Assembly: GCF_002210295.1 (NCBI RefSeq)
Contig: NZ_MWQH01000011.1
Coordinates: 1-64,000 of the forward strand
From: Fibrobacter sp. UWB5
Lineage (GTDB): Bacteria; Fibrobacterota; Fibrobacteria; Fibrobacterales; Fibrobacteraceae
Direction: 5' to 3'
DNA length: 64,000 nucleotides
Under the pieces are notes generated by a model that saw only the letters and a program-made list of their open reading frames with translations, searched no databases and was not told the origin of the DNA. Position 1 is the first letter of the stretch. The number at the start of each line of letters is the position of its first letter. A program made the position numbers and the translations under genes. This document shows positions 2,451 through 55,490 of the stretch, piece after piece.

Positions 2451-2798
2451 ATGTCATCAGAAGTAAGAATCTATAAAGGCCATTATACCAGCGGATCTGC
2501 CGTTTGGACTTTTGCGGATAACCGTTTGTACTCTGGTCATTATGCCAGCGGTACGGCTGTGTATTGCTTTGACAATGGTCGCATTTACAAGGGCCATTAC
2601 GCCAGCGGTTCCGCCATCGCAAACTTTGACAAGGACCGCATTTACAATGGCCATTACGCTAGCGGCACTGCGGAATACTGCATTGACGGTGGCCGAATTT
2701 TCGAAGGTCATTATGCCAGTGGTTCCGCTATTGCTTGCGTTGATAAGGCTCGGGATTTGCCTCTTTACGTGCTTGCCTTTGTGGCGACGTTATTTTGA
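2451..2798 (+). CDS. Tandem 19-residue repeat protein (4-fold beta-flower-like)
   Basis: A 115-residue protein made almost entirely of five 19-residue repeats starting at Arg6, 25, 44, 63 and 82. The core is RIYxGHYASGSA, then a hydrophobic-x-Asp/Asn segment. Repeats of this kind (short G-xY-ASG strands joined by D-x-G turns) resemble the small 4-fold beta-flower domain; this is from recall and unverified. A 15-residue hydrophobic tail (LPLYVLAFVATLF) follows and could be a membrane anchor or an out-of-repeat end. ATG 2451 has GGAGG 6 nt upstream. The gene sits between 12-bp inverted repeats at 2237-2248 and 2873-2884. Function unknown. Confidence 0.75.
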   Translation: MSSEVRIYKGHYTSGSAVWTFADNRLYSGHYASGTAVYCFDNGRIYKGHYASGSAIANFDKDRIYNGHYASGTAEYCIDGGRIFEGHYASGSAIACVDKARDLPLYVLAFVATLF

Positions 2799-5333: not shown

Positions 5334-5419
5334 TTGAAAAATCTATAATTTTTAACAGATTTTATGTTGAAATATCTATAATTTTATGGTATATTTATGT
5401 TGAAAAATCTATAATTTTT
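5334..5419 (+). repeat. Three direct repeats with exact 33-bp period upstream of AAA_14 ATPase
   Basis: TTGAAAAATCTATAATTTTT occurs at 5334-5353 and 5400-5419. A two-mismatch copy (TTGAAATATCTATAATTTTA) is at 5367-5386. Start-to-start spacing is 33 bp both times. The 13-bp linkers are unrelated except that both end in TTTATG or TTTTATG. The last copy ends 21 nt before the ATPase start codon. The arrangement fits tandem operator sites on one DNA face or a repeat recognised by the encoded protein. A second AAA_14 gene in this window (30289) has the same architecture with a different unit. Confidence 0.85.
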
Positions 5420-5440
5420 GGATAATAACGGCGAGGAAGC

Positions 5441-6772
5441 ATGTTCAAACGCAAGGCATACGACAAATTGAAGGAGTGGAAACAGACTTACTCCGGGCGG
5501 TACGCCTGCCTTCTGGAGGGGGCGCGGCGCGTGGGCAAATCCACCATCGCCGAGGAATTCGCCAAGAACGAATACGAATCCTACATCCGGATTGACTTCG
5601 CCAATGTCACAGACGAAATGCTAGATGTCTTTCGCGATATTTCCAAGCCGGACCTTTTCTTTTTGCGCCTCCAGGCAGAAACGGGCGTAACTCTCAAGGA
5701 ACGCAAGTCCGCGATTATCTTCGACGAAATCCAGCTCCAGCCCAAGGTGCGCCAGGCAATCAAATACCTTGTTCAAGACGGCCGCTACGACTACATCGAA
5801 ACAGGGTCGCTCATATCCATCAAAAAGAACATCCAGGGAATCGTTATCCCTTCCGAGGAGCACAAGATTAACGTCTATCCCATGGATTACGAGGAATTCA
5901 TGTGGGCAATCGGCAAAGATCCCGCGGTGATACGCGAAATCTACAAGGCCAAGACACCCATCGGGAACGCCACCAACAGAAGCCTGATGCGTGATTTTCG
6001 GCTTTACATGGCTGTCGGCGGCATGCCGCAAGCGGTCGATGCGTACATCCGCAAGGAAAACTTCGAGGTTATCGACGGCATCAAGCGGAAGATCAACGAC
6101 CTGTATTTTGACGACTTGAAAAAACTGGACCCGACAGGACGTTTGTCCAACATTTATAAATCCATTCCGAGCCAGCTCGCGCTGAAGAAAAAGAACTTCA
6201 CAATCACTAAAGCGACGGGCAAGCAGAAAACGCCAAAAGACGAGGAACGCTTTTTTGAACTGATGGATTCAAAGACGGTGCTCGCCTGCTACCACGTGAG
6301 TAACCCGGCCTCGGCTCTAGCACAGACAAAAGATTTGGACAAGTTCAAACTCTACACCGCCGATACGGGACTTTTTATCTCGCTGATGTTCGACAACTCG
6401 AAACAGACCAACGAGATTTACAAGAAACTTCTGAGCGACAAGCTGGATGCCGATTTAGGTTACTTGTACGAAAATGTCGCGGCCCAAATTATAGCTTCAA
6501 GCGACAGGGAACTGTATTACCACACCTGGCAAAAAGAAAACAGCACGCACTATTACGAGATTGACTTTCTGCTATCGCATGGTAATAAGGTAGTCCCTGT
6601 CGAAATAAAGTCTTCGGCAGCACGGAACCACGAATCCATCGACCAGTTCGCAGAAAAGTATTCCAAAAAGGTTTACCGCAGAATCCTCTTCTCGCAAAAG
6701 GACGTGGACCACGTCGGAACACTGCAACTCAAACCCCTGTACATGTTGCCGTTTGCATTGGAAGAGATGTAG
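5441..6772 (+). CDS. AAA_14/DUF4143 family ATPase (ATP-binding protein)
   Basis: A 443-residue soluble protein of the AAA_14 plus DUF4143 architecture. Walker A GARRVGKST spans 27-35. Walker B is IIFDEIQ (Asp95, Glu96), followed by the sensor-type segment YIETGS. The C-terminus has the PD-(D/E)XK-like pattern YEIDFLL ... VVPVEIKSS, typical of DUF4143 and reminiscent of a nuclease core. The family is very abundant in Fibrobacter, Treponema and Bacteroides, and its role is poorly understood. ATG 5441 has GAGGAAG 7 nt upstream. The promoter region consists of three 33-bp-period repeats. It is monocistronic, with nothing coding between 6773 and 6887. Confidence 0.92.
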   Translation: MFKRKAYDKLKEWKQTYSGRYACLLEGARRVGKSTIAEEFAKNEYESYIRIDFANVTDEMLDVFRDISKPDLFFLRLQAETGVTLKERKSAIIFDEIQLQPKVRQAIKYLVQDGRYDYIETGSLISIKKNIQGIVIPSEEHKINVYPMDYEEFMWAIGKDPAVIREIYKAKTPIGNATNRSLMRDFRLYMAVGGMPQAVDAYIRKENFEVIDGIKRKINDLYFDDLKKLDPTGRLSNIYKSIPSQLALKKKNFTITKATGKQKTPKDEERFFELMDSKTVLACYHVSNPASALAQTKDLDKFKLYTADTGLFISLMFDNSKQTNEIYKKLLSDKLDADLGYLYENVAAQIIASSDRELYYHTWQKENSTHYYEIDFLLSHGNKVVPVEIKSSAARNHESIDQFAEKYSKKVYRRILFSQKDVDHVGTLQLKPLYMLPFALEEM

Positions 6773-30202: not shown

Positions 30203-30285
30203 TTGGAAAAACGGACAAAAATAAATAAAAAATAGTTGGAAAAACGGATAAAATTAGTTATTTTAAGGTTGGATAAACGGGAAAA
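30203..30285 (+). repeat. Second array of three repeats with exact 33-bp period upstream of an AAA_14 ATPase
   Basis: TTGGAAAAACGGACAAAA at 30203-30220, TTGGAAAAACGGATAAAA at 30236-30253 and TTGGATAAACGGGAAAA at 30269-30285. Starts are 33 bp apart both times. The last copy overlaps the ribosome binding site; ATG follows at 30289. Unit sequence differs from the array at 5334 but shares TTG-purine-A-rich start, copy number and period. The base before each copy is A, G, G in both arrays. Confidence 0.85.
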
Positions 30286-30288
30286 CCT

Positions 30289-31644
30289 ATGATTCAACGC
30301 AAAATAGACAACTATTTGGTCGATTTCTATGCCAAGCATAGGAAGGCGCTGCTTGTTACGGGAGCAAGGCAAATTGGCAAGACGAGCTCAATTCGCGAAT
30401 TCGGTAAAAAGCATTTCAAGCACTTTGTTGAAATCAATTTCCTGGAATCGCCAGCCGCTAAGGCGATCTTTGAGGGAGCCGACACCTCCGACATTCTACT
30501 CCGTCTGTCGGCATACACCAAAACGAAGTTGGTCAAAAACGAAACCCTGATTTTCCTAGACGAAATTCAGGAATGTCCGAATGCGGTAACGGCGATCAAG
30601 TTCCTTGTCGAGGAAGGCTCTTACCGTTACATCATGAGCGGTTCACTTCTTGGAGTGGAACTCAAAGATATCCGTTCCCTTCCGGTCGGATTTTTAAGCA
30701 TCAAGGAAATGTTCCCTCTAGACCTGGAGGAATTTGCGAATGCGGTAGGCGTGCAGCCGGAAGTCCTGAAATCTATCCACTCTGCTTTCGCAAATAAAAC
30801 CGAAGTTGATGCGCTTGTCCATGAAAAAATGATGGCAATCTTTCGCCTGTATATGGTTATCGGCGGAATGCCCGCAGCAGTCGCGGAGTATCTGGAATCA
30901 AACAACATCCAGAATGTCGTAGAAATTCAGCAAAGCATTATTGAGTTATACAAGAAGGATATTGCCAAATACGACCCCAAGAACAAGTTGTATCTGAACG
31001 AAATCTTCGACTTGATTCCGCCGGAACTGAACAACCAGAACAAGAGATTTATCCTGAAAAAACTGAACGAGAATCTCAAATTCTCGCATTACGAAAATTC
31101 CTTTATCTGGTTAAAAGAAGCAGGCGTGGCGATCCCTGTTTATAATGTAGATGAACCCAAAATACCCCTGTTACTTTCGCGTTCGCGGAACCTGTTCAAG
31201 TTGTTCCTGAACGATGTCGGATTGCTCACCTGCCAATATGCAAACGGAATCCAGCTGAAAATTTTGAACGGCGACTCCGATATCAATTTCGGCTCTGTTT
31301 ATGAAAATGTCGCCGCGACCGAACTCCGGGCGCACGGCTTTGACCTTTATTATTTCAACAGCAAAAAGCAGGGCGAACTGGATTTTGTCATTGAGCAGAA
31401 CGGGAACGTTCTCCCCATAGAAATCAAGTCGGGCAAAGATTACAAGCGACACAACGCCCTGAAGAATGTCATGGAGACACCCAACTATGCAATTAAGCAG
31501 GCAGTGGTGTTTTGCAATGACAACATCCGTACGAAAGACAGCATTTTATATTGCCCGATTTACATGCTCATGTTCTTGAGCAACGAAAAGATTGTTTTGG
31601 GAACGTATAAGCTTGATTTAAACGGCTTAGAGTCGCGTGTATAG
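30289..31644 (+). CDS. AAA_14/DUF4143 family ATPase (ATP-binding protein)
   Basis: A 451-residue soluble protein with the same architecture as the one at 5441 but distant in sequence. Walker A is TGARQIGKT (24-32) and Walker B LIFLDEIQE (Asp91, Glu92), followed by YIMSGSLLG. The DUF4143 part holds LFLNDVGLLTC, GSVYENVAATEL and the nuclease-like LDFVIEQNGNVLPIEIKSG. ATG 30289 directly follows GGGAAAACCT, itself within the third upstream repeat. It is divergent from the HTH/OLD-like operon. Its stop is 3 nt from the convergent FISUMP gene. Function of the family is not settled. Confidence 0.92.
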   Translation: MIQRKIDNYLVDFYAKHRKALLVTGARQIGKTSSIREFGKKHFKHFVEINFLESPAAKAIFEGADTSDILLRLSAYTKTKLVKNETLIFLDEIQECPNAVTAIKFLVEEGSYRYIMSGSLLGVELKDIRSLPVGFLSIKEMFPLDLEEFANAVGVQPEVLKSIHSAFANKTEVDALVHEKMMAIFRLYMVIGGMPAAVAEYLESNNIQNVVEIQQSIIELYKKDIAKYDPKNKLYLNEIFDLIPPELNNQNKRFILKKLNENLKFSHYENSFIWLKEAGVAIPVYNVDEPKIPLLLSRSRNLFKLFLNDVGLLTCQYANGIQLKILNGDSDINFGSVYENVAATELRAHGFDLYYFNSKKQGELDFVIEQNGNVLPIEIKSGKDYKRHNALKNVMETPNYAIKQAVVFCNDNIRTKDSILYCPIYMLMFLSNEKIVLGTYKLDLNGLESRV

Positions 31645-38772: not shown

Positions 38773-40449
38773 TTATTGCACATCGCAACCGGCGCTCGGG
38801 TTGACCCAACCGTCTTCCGGAGGAGCCTCGCCCGCCTTCCAGCAATGGAGCGTATCGAGCACGTCGCCTTCCTTGAAAGTGGACCAGTCCGTCACCTTCT
38901 TATAGTTGTTTTCCAGCGAGGTGTTGTATCGGCTCATGTAATGGTCAATCAAGTACTGCGGGCATTCCACTTCTTCGATGTAGTAAGTCGGATTGTCTGC
39001 TGCCATGTACCAGTCGGCAAACCAGTGGCAACCGCGCAAGAGATTCGGGAGGCCGGCATCAGCAAAAGCGGCGTCGCACATATCCTTGACACAAGTCTGA
39101 TAACATTCCAAGGAACCTTCGGTACCGCAGTTGACGTTTTTCTGGCATTCGGTCAAGAATCCGCCAAAGCCTGCGCCCCAGTTAAAGTCGCTGCCCTTGT
39201 TCACCTGAGTAGAGAGAGCGTCAAAGGCGCCCACGCCACCGCCCGGAACCATCAAGTCAAACTGACCTGCCGGAAGATCCGGATTACCGCCTGCCACATC
39301 CATACCGATGTTAGAGGCCATCACCACCAGATGCTTACCCTTAAGTGCCTTATGAGTCGCCTTGGGCGGGTTCATCTCGAACTCATCCTTAAAGTGACCA
39401 TCATACTGCAAGTGATAGCACTTGCCGCACTTGCTATCGGCAGTGCCTGCAACGTATGCATAGGCAAGAGTGTCGTTCACGGCAATCGGCGCCATGTCGG
39501 TGCAGGTGAACACGCCCTTTTCCTTTTCGTCACCGCAAGCGCTTCTGGTCCCGTTGTAACCGAACCAGGACTTCGTTACGTCACCCAAGGTAAAGGTGGG
39601 AACTTCGACATCGTGGATGTTGCAGTTACGCGCAGTGCCAAAGTCGGCAAGGAACGCCTCGTTGGAAGAAGTATCTGCACGGGTTTTATCGTTAGAGCTT
39701 TCCTTAAGCCAGGAACAATGCGGCTTACAGGCGTCCCAGTAGCGAGTGTTCCAGCCACGTTTTGCCGTAGCGCTAATGTCCTTGGTGTATTCGGCCGGAG
39801 GCGCACCGTAAGATTCAAGAGTCGGGAACCCGTCGGGGCCCAGTTCCGGATCCGTATTCACGGAGCCGCTGCTTGCAACAGGGTCAGCGCCCGCACTCGA
39901 CGTCGGATCGGTAATGCCCGCAGAAGATGTCGGGTTAGTCGGATCGGTAACGCCCGCGCTAGAAGTCGGATTCTGACCATTGTCAGTTGCCGAAGAAAGC
40001 GGAGTGCCGTCTGCAGCGGTATTGGCCTGACAGAACTGCTTTACAGCCATGTTCATGTCAATCCAGATATCCTTCTCTCCGTTGATAATTTCGTAGACAT
40101 GTCCGATTTTGAATCCGTTCTTCTCTTCTTCGTAGTAGTAGTAAGAAGAAACTTTTCCGTCGGAATCATAGACAATGCCTCGATCCGTTCCAGAGGTTGC
40201 CTGGTCAATGACCAAGTAATCGCCACCACCGATATCTTCGATCCAACCCGGAGCAACCACCTTGTATTTTGCACAGGGGTCGTTCGCGTTGTTCTTATTG
40301 GAATCGCCAGGCGTCTGGGCGGAATTACTCGAAAGATCCGTACCATTGCCCGGGCTCGGCTGCGACGAATTGCTGGAATCGTCACCGCAAGCGCAAATCA
40401 TGGCAACCGCGCCTGCAGCAAGCATGGACTTAAACAGTTTACGATTCAT
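38773..40449 (-). CDS. GH45 endoglucanase lipoprotein
   Basis: A 558-residue lipoprotein (lipobox ICAC, Cys21). After a Ser/Asn-rich stretch and a small beta domain (about 58-140) comes a linker of DPT/TSSAG repeats. The GH45 domain covers about 225-500: signature NTRYWDACKPHCSW with catalytic base Asp239, HDVEVPTFTLGD, CGKCYHLQYDG, VPGGGVGAFDALSTQ, and catalytic-acid segment GCHWFADWYMAADNP with Asp479 in the FDWF position of fungal enzymes. It cleaves internal beta-1,4-glucan bonds and is anchored at the cell surface. Preceded 19 nt upstream by a paralogue. Confidence 0.94.
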   Translation of the reverse strand: MNRKLFKSMLAAGAVAMICACGDDSSNSSQPSPGNGTDLSSNSAQTPGDSNKNNANDPCAKYKVVAPGWIEDIGGGDYLVIDQATSGTDRGIVYDSDGKVSSYYYYEEEKNGFKIGHVYEIINGEKDIWIDMNMAVKQFCQANTAADGTPLSSATDNGQNPTSSAGVTDPTNPTSSAGITDPTSSAGADPVASSGSVNTDPELGPDGFPTLESYGAPPAEYTKDISATAKRGWNTRYWDACKPHCSWLKESSNDKTRADTSSNEAFLADFGTARNCNIHDVEVPTFTLGDVTKSWFGYNGTRSACGDEKEKGVFTCTDMAPIAVNDTLAYAYVAGTADSKCGKCYHLQYDGHFKDEFEMNPPKATHKALKGKHLVVMASNIGMDVAGGNPDLPAGQFDLMVPGGGVGAFDALSTQVNKGSDFNWGAGFGGFLTECQKNVNCGTEGSLECYQTCVKDMCDAAFADAGLPNLLRGCHWFADWYMAADNPTYYIEEVECPQYLIDHYMSRYNTSLENNYKKVTDWSTFKEGDVLDTLHCWKAGEAPPEDGWVNPSAGCDVQ

Positions 40450-40468
40450 AAAACCTCTTACGGGGCGA

Positions 40469-42070
40469 CTAGTAAGACTTGGCCTTGTCAGCAGCTAGCT
40501 GATCCGGGTCGCAGTATTGTCCCTGTGCATCGGGAGTTCTGGAGCAGGCATCCGTGGTAATGAATTGTCCATCCCCTTTATAGTTGTCCCACTTGTCAGA
40601 GTAAAGGACATTGGTTTCAAGTTCCAGGCTGAGAGTCGTACGGTACTTATCCACCAAATACTGGGGGCATTCCACTTCTTCCCAAACAAAGGAAGGATTG
40701 TCCGCGGCCTCGAAGAATGTGGCAAGCCACTTGCAACCACGATTCAGGTGAGGCCATACAGTGGAGTCAAATACGGCCTCGCACTTTTCAATCACACATT
40801 CCTGGTATTGTTCCTTGGTCACTTGCCAGTAACCCAGTTTCTGCATGCAATAGCTCAAGACACCACCATTGTTGCTACCGAGGTCTTCCGGAGACTTGCC
40901 AATCTGCGTAGAGAGTGCGTTAAAGATACCAACACCACCACCAGGAACAAGCAGGTCGAACTGGGTGCTACTAGCATCAACATCATGACCGATATTGGAA
41001 GCCATGACGATCATATGCTTGCCCTTAAGTGCTAAGTGCGTGTCCTTTACATCCGGGCCACCATTTCCCATATTGCTGGTGCTGCCATCATACTGCAAGT
41101 GATAGCACTTACCGCAACCCTGGTTGCTGGGGCCAGCCACAAAGCCATAGGACAAAGTATCGTTCACCTTAATGGGAGCCATATCGGTACAAGTGAAGGA
41201 ACCGCCAGCGCCAACTTCACAGGAGCTGGGCACACCTTCCATGCCCCACCAATAACGCTCCAGGCCCTTGCTCAATGTGAACGTGGGAATTTCAACGTCA
41301 TGGATGTTGCAGTTCCTTACCGTGTAACCCGCAGCTGCATACGCGGCCTGACTGGAGGTATCCACATTATCCATCCAACTGCAGTGGGGCTTGCAGGAAT
41401 CCCAATAGCGAGAGTTCCATCCCTTTTGGGTCGTGCCTGCCGCCAGGAGGTTCTTATAAGATGCAACAGGATACTTCTTGATGTCTTCTTCGGGGTTGCC
41501 GCTCGGCTTGACAGGTTCCACGCTGCTGGAGCTGGTTTCTACAGGTTCGGTGCCTGCGCTAGAAGTCGGGTCGGTCGGATCCGTGACACCTGCAGAAGAT
41601 GTCGGATCCGTCGGATCGGTCGGGTCCGTAACGCCCGCAGAAGACGTCGGGTTCGTCGGATCGGTCGGGTCCGTGACGCCTGCAGAAGATGTCGGGTTTG
41701 TCGGATCGGTCGTCACAGACGAAGAACTAAACTTTTCGATGACGCCCGTTTGCGGGTCAACAGCCGCATTTGCCGGGCACATGGTAAGGTCGGCCAAGTT
41801 GACATTCTGCGCAAGAGGAGCGCCGTTCAAATCCATCACGATACCGGCATCAAAGTAGCCAATTGCATTGCCGGCAAGATCGGTCACGTTACCGTCGGCA
41901 TAAATGACCCAGTTGTTCAAAAGCCATGCATCGGCAGTTACGACAGCCTTCGCGCAGCCGTTATCGGCAATCGGGGTTGCAGGATTGCTCGAAGCGGAAT
42001 CGTCGCCGCAAGCGCAAATCATGGCGACCGCACCGGCCGCAATCATGGACTTGAATAATTTACGTTTCAT
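40469..42070 (-). CDS. GH45-like lipoprotein lacking the usual catalytic acid
   Basis: A 533-residue paralogue of the downstream GH45 protein with the same signal and lipobox (ICAC). The linker is an expanded TDPTNPTSSAGV tandem repeat (nucleotides about 41560-41710). The GH45 base region is kept (NSRYWDSCKPHCSWMD), as are CGKCYHLQYDG and VPGGGVGIFNALSTQ. The acid segment reads GCKWLATFFEAADNP, with Thr451 where the paralogue has Asp479. It may therefore be inactive (binding only), or use another residue. ATG 42070 has AGAGGAT upstream. Gap to the paralogue is 19 nt, so both are in one operon. Confidence 0.9.
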   Translation of the reverse strand: MKRKLFKSMIAAGAVAMICACGDDSASSNPATPIADNGCAKAVVTADAWLLNNWVIYADGNVTDLAGNAIGYFDAGIVMDLNGAPLAQNVNLADLTMCPANAAVDPQTGVIEKFSSSSVTTDPTNPTSSAGVTDPTDPTNPTSSAGVTDPTDPTDPTSSAGVTDPTDPTSSAGTEPVETSSSSVEPVKPSGNPEEDIKKYPVASYKNLLAAGTTQKGWNSRYWDSCKPHCSWMDNVDTSSQAAYAAAGYTVRNCNIHDVEIPTFTLSKGLERYWWGMEGVPSSCEVGAGGSFTCTDMAPIKVNDTLSYGFVAGPSNQGCGKCYHLQYDGSTSNMGNGGPDVKDTHLALKGKHMIVMASNIGHDVDASSTQFDLLVPGGGVGIFNALSTQIGKSPEDLGSNNGGVLSYCMQKLGYWQVTKEQYQECVIEKCEAVFDSTVWPHLNRGCKWLATFFEAADNPSFVWEEVECPQYLVDKYRTTLSLELETNVLYSDKWDNYKGDGQFITTDACSRTPDAQGQYCDPDQLAADKAKSY

Positions 42071-54587: not shown

Positions 54588-55490
54588 ATGAAAAAAATCT
54601 TCTTGTTTGCAATTCTTGCTCTTTTCGCCGCCTGTAGTGACGAGAACCCCTTCGATTCCATCGAAGACGATCTGGACGCCAACTACCGCGAAGCAAATAA
54701 CGAAGTCGTAGAGTCTGAATATAACTCTCATCGTTCCAGCTCCAGCTACATGAGCGAATCTGAAAAATGCCAGATGGGCATCAGTTCCTATAGTGACACA
54801 TATTGTTGCTCCAATTACGGATACAAGTGCAGCTCCAGTCTGGGTGAGTACGAAAAATGCCGTTTAGGCACGAGCACAAAGAGCAATAGCTATTGCTGTT
54901 CTCAATACGGATTCCAGTGCTATAACTCCAGCAGTTCCAGCTACATGAGTGAATCCGATAAATGCCGCTTGGGCACCAGTTCCTATAGCGACAGCTATTG
55001 CTGTTCTTATTACGGATACAGGTGCAGCTATGTTTCAAGCAGTTCATCGCGTTATACATCAAGCAGCTCTAGCGCCGTCTACTACTTGACCACCGCAAAA
55101 TCGATGAAAGTCACCCTGACCTATTACAAGCAGCTTTCAAGTAACTGGGATGGTTTAGACAACGCTGGCGACCCGGAAGTTTCGTTCACGATTTACACTT
55201 ACAGCGACGGCGTTTTAGGGCAAACCATCAACACCACCACCTTTATCGACAAACAAGATACTAGGCTATGGAGCGGCACCGTTACCAAATCTTATACGAT
55301 TAACAAGGGGACGGACCAGATTAAAATTTGCCCCAAAGTCATCGACGAGGACATCTCGGAACATGACAACTATTCTTCGGGAAAATGCTTTACGAAATCG
55401 AACATCGGATACCTAAAATCCACCGATGTCATGGAGCACGAAGATTACAACAGCAACTACGACCTTGAATGGGAATGGTATCTGTTGTAG
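54588..55490 (+). CDS. Lipoprotein with three Cys-rich repeats
   Basis: A 300-residue lipoprotein (ATG 54588, AGGAG 8 nt upstream; lipobox FAAC, Cys16). Three tandem repeats follow: KCQMGISSYSDTYCCSNYGY, KCRLGTSTKSNSYCCSQYGF and KCRLGTSSYSDSYCCSYYGY, each closed by one further Cys. They are separated by Ser-rich linkers (SSSSSYMSES). Each unit has four cysteines with a CC pair, suggesting a disulfide-knotted micro-domain. The C-terminal 130 residues are beta-rich (MKVTLTYYKQLSSNWDG ... VSFTIYTYSDG). Last gene of the operon; its 3' end overlaps the convergent glycosyltransferase by 34 nt. Confidence 0.82.
   Translation: MKKIFLFAILALFAACSDENPFDSIEDDLDANYREANNEVVESEYNSHRSSSSYMSESEKCQMGISSYSDTYCCSNYGYKCSSSLGEYEKCRLGTSTKSNSYCCSQYGFQCYNSSSSSYMSESDKCRLGTSSYSDSYCCSYYGYRCSYVSSSSSRYTSSSSSAVYYLTTAKSMKVTLTYYKQLSSNWDGLDNAGDPEVSFTIYTYSDGVLGQTINTTTFIDKQDTRLWSGTVTKSYTINKGTDQIKICPKVIDEDISEHDNYSSGKCFTKSNIGYLKSTDVMEHEDYNSNYDLEWEWYLL

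Follow-up and report, generated by a model that had tools for sequence, protein, structure and literature searches.

A putative self-matched operator array with a 33-bp period upstream of AAA_14/DUF4143 ATPase genes

The question raised by the locus studied here is whether a short repeat in front of a gene is a local oddity or a dedicated regulatory element of the gene behind it. In a 64,000-nucleotide stretch of Fibrobacter sp. UWB5 DNA (assembly GCF_002210295.1, contig NZ_MWQH01000011.1, positions 1 to 64,000 of the forward strand; hereafter the window), three near-identical 20-mers precede a gene of the AAA_14/DUF4143 ATPase family. A sequence-only reading had proposed that they form a dedicated cis array in the promoter, selected for spacing, which marks autoregulation or is the target of the ATPase and its nuclease-like domain. 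This family is widespread: one 2026 survey counts 29,494 systems of the corresponding phage-defense candidate PDC-S01 in Bacteria and 9,986 in Archaea (PMC12988326), and another finds PDC-S01 to be the most frequent single locus in rumen genomes (PMC13356809), yet no molecular function was found in the papers searched. Here, we examine the array, its distribution upstream of homologous genes and its relation to the encoded protein.

The array and the predicted protein

The proposed array is real. The spacing between successive copies is exactly 33 and 33 bp, the middle copy carries two changes, and 21 nt separate the last copy from the start codon; a repeat finder and Tandem Repeats Finder (score 123) detected it independently. 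The 141-bp region matches only itself in the 3.36-Mb genome. The 19-mer core with up to three mismatches occurs eight times, namely in these three copies at 0-1 mismatch and at five other places with exactly three mismatches, against one occurrence of the reversed control pattern. The sequence-only reading requires two corrections. It had described the linkers as unrelated, but AACAGATTTTATG and TGGTATATTTATG share their last six bases (TTTATG), so that the conserved unit of copies 2 and 3 is about 26 bp, and it had ended the element at 5440, which includes the leader. An upstream sequence, TTTTAGCGAAATTTCGCC, suspected of being a genome-wide repeat, is not one in this genome (one hit with two mismatches, control 1).

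The 443-aa product scores above the curated cut-offs for AAA_14 (PF13173, 76.7 bits, cut-off 27) and DUF4143 (PF13635, 64.4 bits, cut-off 28.1) and matches the PADLOC profile of PDC-S01 over residues 1-438 (E 2.3e-92). An AlphaFold2 model built from 39 homologues (mean pLDDT 90.6) aligns best with the archaeal STAND-type ATPases PABY2304 (2qen, Z 16.1 over 272 residues, rmsd 5.0) and SSO1545 (2fna, Z 14.8 over 262 residues, rmsd 3.8), then with CED-4 and plant NLRs, while Foldseek also lists MalT (8bob) and ORC/Cdc6. This relationship is one of fold only, since a sequence search of the PDB gave no relative (one match at E 0.024 to a designed protein was ignored). Walker residues and the E-x-K of the C-terminal PD-(D/E)XK-like domain are invariant, so both activities look intact.

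Table 1. Coordinates of features in the window and in contig C1 of the same genome.
Position	Strand	Feature	Basis or remark
5334-5353	+	Array copy 1, TTGAAAAATCTATAATTTTT	Direct reading, repeat finder, Tandem Repeats Finder
5367-5386	+	Array copy 2, TTGAAATATCTATAATTTTA	Direct reading, repeat finder, Tandem Repeats Finder
5400-5419	+	Array copy 3, TTGAAAAATCTATAATTTTT; covers the predicted transcription start	As above; start site inferred from the -10 box
5367-5372	+	Candidate -35 box TTGAAA, inside copy 2	Read from the sequence; 17-bp spacer to 5390
5390-5395	+	Candidate -10 box TATATT, between copies 2 and 3	Read from the sequence; same placement (copy centre about 4 bp upstream of the spacer centre) typical of Bacillota homologues
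5432-5438	+	Candidate ribosome-binding site	Read from the sequence
5441-6772	+	AAA_14/DUF4143 ATPase gene, 443 aa (PADLOC PDC-S01)	Profile searches
5519-5545	+	Walker A GARRVGKST (residues 27-35)	G27, G32 and K33 invariant
6140-6358	+	Predicted winged-helix region, residues 234-306	Helix-strand order in the AlphaFold2 model; assignment as a winged helix is inference
6458-6610	+	PD-(D/E)XK-like domain, residues 340-390	E373, E388 and K390 invariant, D375 nearly so (90% or more among 39 homologues)
30203-30280	+	Second array of the window, period 33, unit about GTTGGAAAAACGGA	Different letters; also found in the blind scan
30289-31644	+	Second AAA_14/DUF4143 gene of the window	32% identical to the first
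2478-2752		Five copies of a 57-bp repeat	Inside an ORF (2451-2798) coding for a GHYASG-type 19-residue repeat
39893-41712		Repeats of 36 and 45 bp, GTCGGATCGG-like	Look like low-complexity coding sequence
54737-55029		Three diverged 80-98-bp repeats	On the + strand reading like cysteine-rich coding sequence
C1 237486-237527		20-bp-period repeat TTCTGCGATTTTTTGTCGGG	Outside the DUF4143 genes found in this genome
C1 273401		Non-coding array, period 32-34	Upstream of the homologue at 273495

Distribution of the arrays among homologous genes

The array is not restricted to this locus. Of 80 genomes of the genus, 64 hold homologues, and in the 150 bp upstream of 89 of these homologues the best self-match period is 32-35 in 85 (33 in 48); 83 exceed all 60 dinucleotide shuffles of their own sequence, while shuffles prefer a period of 32-35 in 9%. 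In 80 named loci, mainly from Bacillota, Bacteroidota and Spirochaetota (Lachnospiraceae, Ruminococcus, Treponema, Sphaerochaetaceae, Bacteroidales, Prevotella relatives and others), the best period is exactly 33 in 76, compared to 4.5% of 223 control regions upstream of other ORFs in the same loci and 3.3% of 215 random stretches. Homologues on viral contigs, down to 24% identity, still give 33 in 23 of 34, although several of these are duplicates. Plasmid homologues in Agathobacter, Segatella, Collinsella, Fusobacterium, Criblamydia, Acinetobacter and Vibrio give 32 or 33, whereas a Bacteroides and a Ruminococcus albus plasmid gene do not by this measure. A few homologues show a weak array or none, among them L037 and the Ruminococcus albus locus L249 (L numbers denote individual loci examined here). 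Conversely, a blind scan of the window finds period-33 arrays only upstream of its two AAA_14/DUF4143 genes, and in 400 kb of contig C1 the only non-coding array with a period of 32-34 at a score of 16 or more precedes a further homologue. All four such genes of this genome have an array. The conditions under which the sequence-only reading would have failed, namely absence of the array from close homologues or a scattering of the 20-mer over the genome, are thus not fulfilled.

While the period is nearly constant, the letters of the unit differ from gene to gene and by subfamily, for example CATTTTGCGAAAATG in L022, ATATCTGCATTTTCGTGCAA in L032, TGCGCACTCT in L034 and GTCAAATTCGTGGCA in L082. 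Close homologues of the window protein in Lachnospiraceae and Spirochaetota keep the half TTGAA and change the other half. Across pairs from different phyla, unit similarity rises with protein identity (Spearman 0.26; none of 1000 within-phylum label permutations reaches this value, null maximum 0.20), and at 60-75% protein identity the mean unit similarity is 0.42 between phyla and 0.44 within them, indicating that the unit follows the phylogeny of the protein and not the host. However, motif similarity falls off fast and is near background below 50% protein identity. Paralogues within one genome are no more different in motif than pairs from different genomes at equal identity, so active avoidance of cross-talk is not supported. 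Selection on core and spacing is supported by the constant period with changing letters and by a copy-to-copy identity of about 0.80-0.95 in the core against about 0.45 in the linkers, a contrast that is inflated because the core was chosen for identity.

The copies are also phased to the promoter. In Bacteroidota the copy nearest the promoter is mostly centred 14-24 bp upstream of the -7 box (TAnnTTTG), and in Bacillota a copy usually lies in the spacer between TTGACA-like and TATAAT-like boxes. Circular tests of these phases give p of about 1e-5 and 5e-8, but these values are rough, since the offsets were transcribed by hand and reduced modulo 33 and include some doubtful promoter picks. The promoter calls are consensus scans with some freedom. 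In the window, the candidate boxes put copy 2 over the -35 box and spacer and copy 3 over the predicted start.

Other geometries occur in a sister DUF4143 clade of about 380-400 aa, where 35 of 62 upstream regions hold a gene-specific imperfect inverted repeat (z above 3), usually centred 20-60 bp upstream of the start, and 7 of 62 a direct repeat with a period of 23 bp (one of the 35 also has a direct repeat). The inverted repeats are about 30-43 bp long and many have TTGAC or GTTCAAC near the centre, while a DUF4143 subfamily (L113, L115, L117-L119, L121 and L274) carries ATGATTTTCATAAA-like words three times at a 23-bp period, in L274 with another word. The principle of a private operator therefore seems family-wide, while its geometry differs between clades, although this part rests on a smaller sample and on plain (mononucleotide) shuffles.

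Possible roles of the array

The best reading, to which we assign a probability of roughly 0.7, is that the array is the gene's own operator, although binding by the cognate protein and the sign of regulation are inferred in the absence of binding or expression data. In this view, the predicted STAND-like AAA+ ATPase binds, as an oligomer and presumably cooperatively, to three (sometimes two or four) copies of a 14-20-bp site, which at a distance of 33 bp (about three helical turns) present the same DNA face. Since one site lies in the core promoter between the -35 and -10 boxes and its neighbours lie upstream or over the start of transcription, bound protein should block RNA polymerase, and the result would most likely be negative autoregulation, perhaps released when the ATPase changes nucleotide state. 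The STAND class includes the transcription factor MalT, and the lack of a second copy of the window's motif elsewhere in the genome is as expected of a self-dedicated operator. The interpretation of the sequence-only reading is supported to this extent; its other option, that the array is a substrate of the nuclease-like domain, is neither supported nor excluded. Which part of the protein would read the DNA could not be assigned, as a sliding-window test for covariation of protein and motif gave weak peaks, the highest (partial correlation 0.25) at residues 376-396 in the PD-(D/E)XK motif and not in the putative winged helix. A self-matched operator gives every gene a predicted DNA target, argues that the proteins are sequence-specific DNA binders and yields a natural set of protein and DNA-word pairs with fixed geometry from which a recognition code could be derived. 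It also warns that defense annotation from genome context alone may be counting autoregulated DNA-binding ATPases whose job is not yet known.

Other readings are less likely. The cognate protein may act on its operator by activation, or by ATP-dependent switching as with MalT, and some arrays indeed extend upstream of the promoter, but the usual position of one copy inside the core-promoter spacer and of another over the start of transcription is a classical repressor placement, which leaves this alternative improbable. Still more doubtful is the possibility that the array is a recognition end or landing site of a mobile cassette, with the period reflecting assembly of a transposition-like or homing complex and regulation being secondary. 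Array and gene can travel together, which also speaks for the operator reading: L010 and L011 are 96% identical from 146 bp upstream of the start to the stop codon with unrelated flanks, L013-L015 carry one copy of the L082-type word just upstream of an L010-type array, and L084 is followed by an internally deleted remnant of an L010-type gene (positions 1940-2073), indicating that two cassette types share an insertion site. The distribution is sporadic, there are cross-phylum relatives at 60-68% identity, and TnsC and MuB appear among the weaker fold matches. However, the array is at one end only and is phased to the promoter, and no terminal inverted repeat, target duplication or matching array after the stop codon was noticed, though without a systematic search.

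The least likely alternative is that the repeats are binding sites of another host regulator, or merely AT-rich promoter spacers copied by tandem duplication. Some arrays (L159, L164 and L195) are identical over the whole 33-bp unit, linker included, which shows recent duplication, but duplication alone would not give the same period in many phyla nor cores conserved above linkers, control genes lack arrays, and one host protein would need to bind many unrelated arrays, since the letters differ between paralogues of one genome while the period stays. A more speculative and unlikely reading, not excluded by the evidence, is that the array is an address label, by which the ATPase/nuclease recognizes its own word not only to set its own level but also to act on other DNA that carries the same word, for instance an incoming copy of the same or a related cassette on a phage or plasmid. 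The family would then be a large set of mutually distinct, single-gene, DNA-addressed exclusion systems whose targets can be read from their own promoters.

Comparison with known systems

PDC-S01 of PADLOC-DB is an unproven, single-gene phage-defense candidate that is defined by the protein and by its embedding in defense loci; the window protein matches it over its full length, but no operator array was found described in the papers searched. The STAND ATPases of the SSO1545/PABY2304 type share the predicted AAA+ core and helical region, and MalT is also matched, while the family studied here adds a C-terminal PD-(D/E)XK-like domain and has cis sites that are private to each gene, where MalT seems to serve a shared regulon. 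CRISPR arrays consist of many identical repeats of about 23-47 bp with unique spacers of similar length, in contrast to the three degenerate 20-bp copies with 13-bp linkers found here within a promoter. Iteron arrays of plasmid Rep proteins, which appear to be tandem direct repeats of about 20 bp in helical phase next to the gene of the binder, with autoregulation, are comparable. The genes described here, however, are mostly chromosomal (that of the window lies in a 93-kb contig of chromosomal genes), show no sign of a replication origin and no Rep domain, and have a longer period of 33 and one unit word per gene. Autorepressed controller genes of restriction-modification and toxin-antitoxin systems likewise tend to have a self-specific operator over their own promoter in a horizontally mobile, defense-linked gene, whereas here one 443-aa ATPase/nuclease-like protein is presumed to do both, with direct repeats at a fixed 33-bp period.
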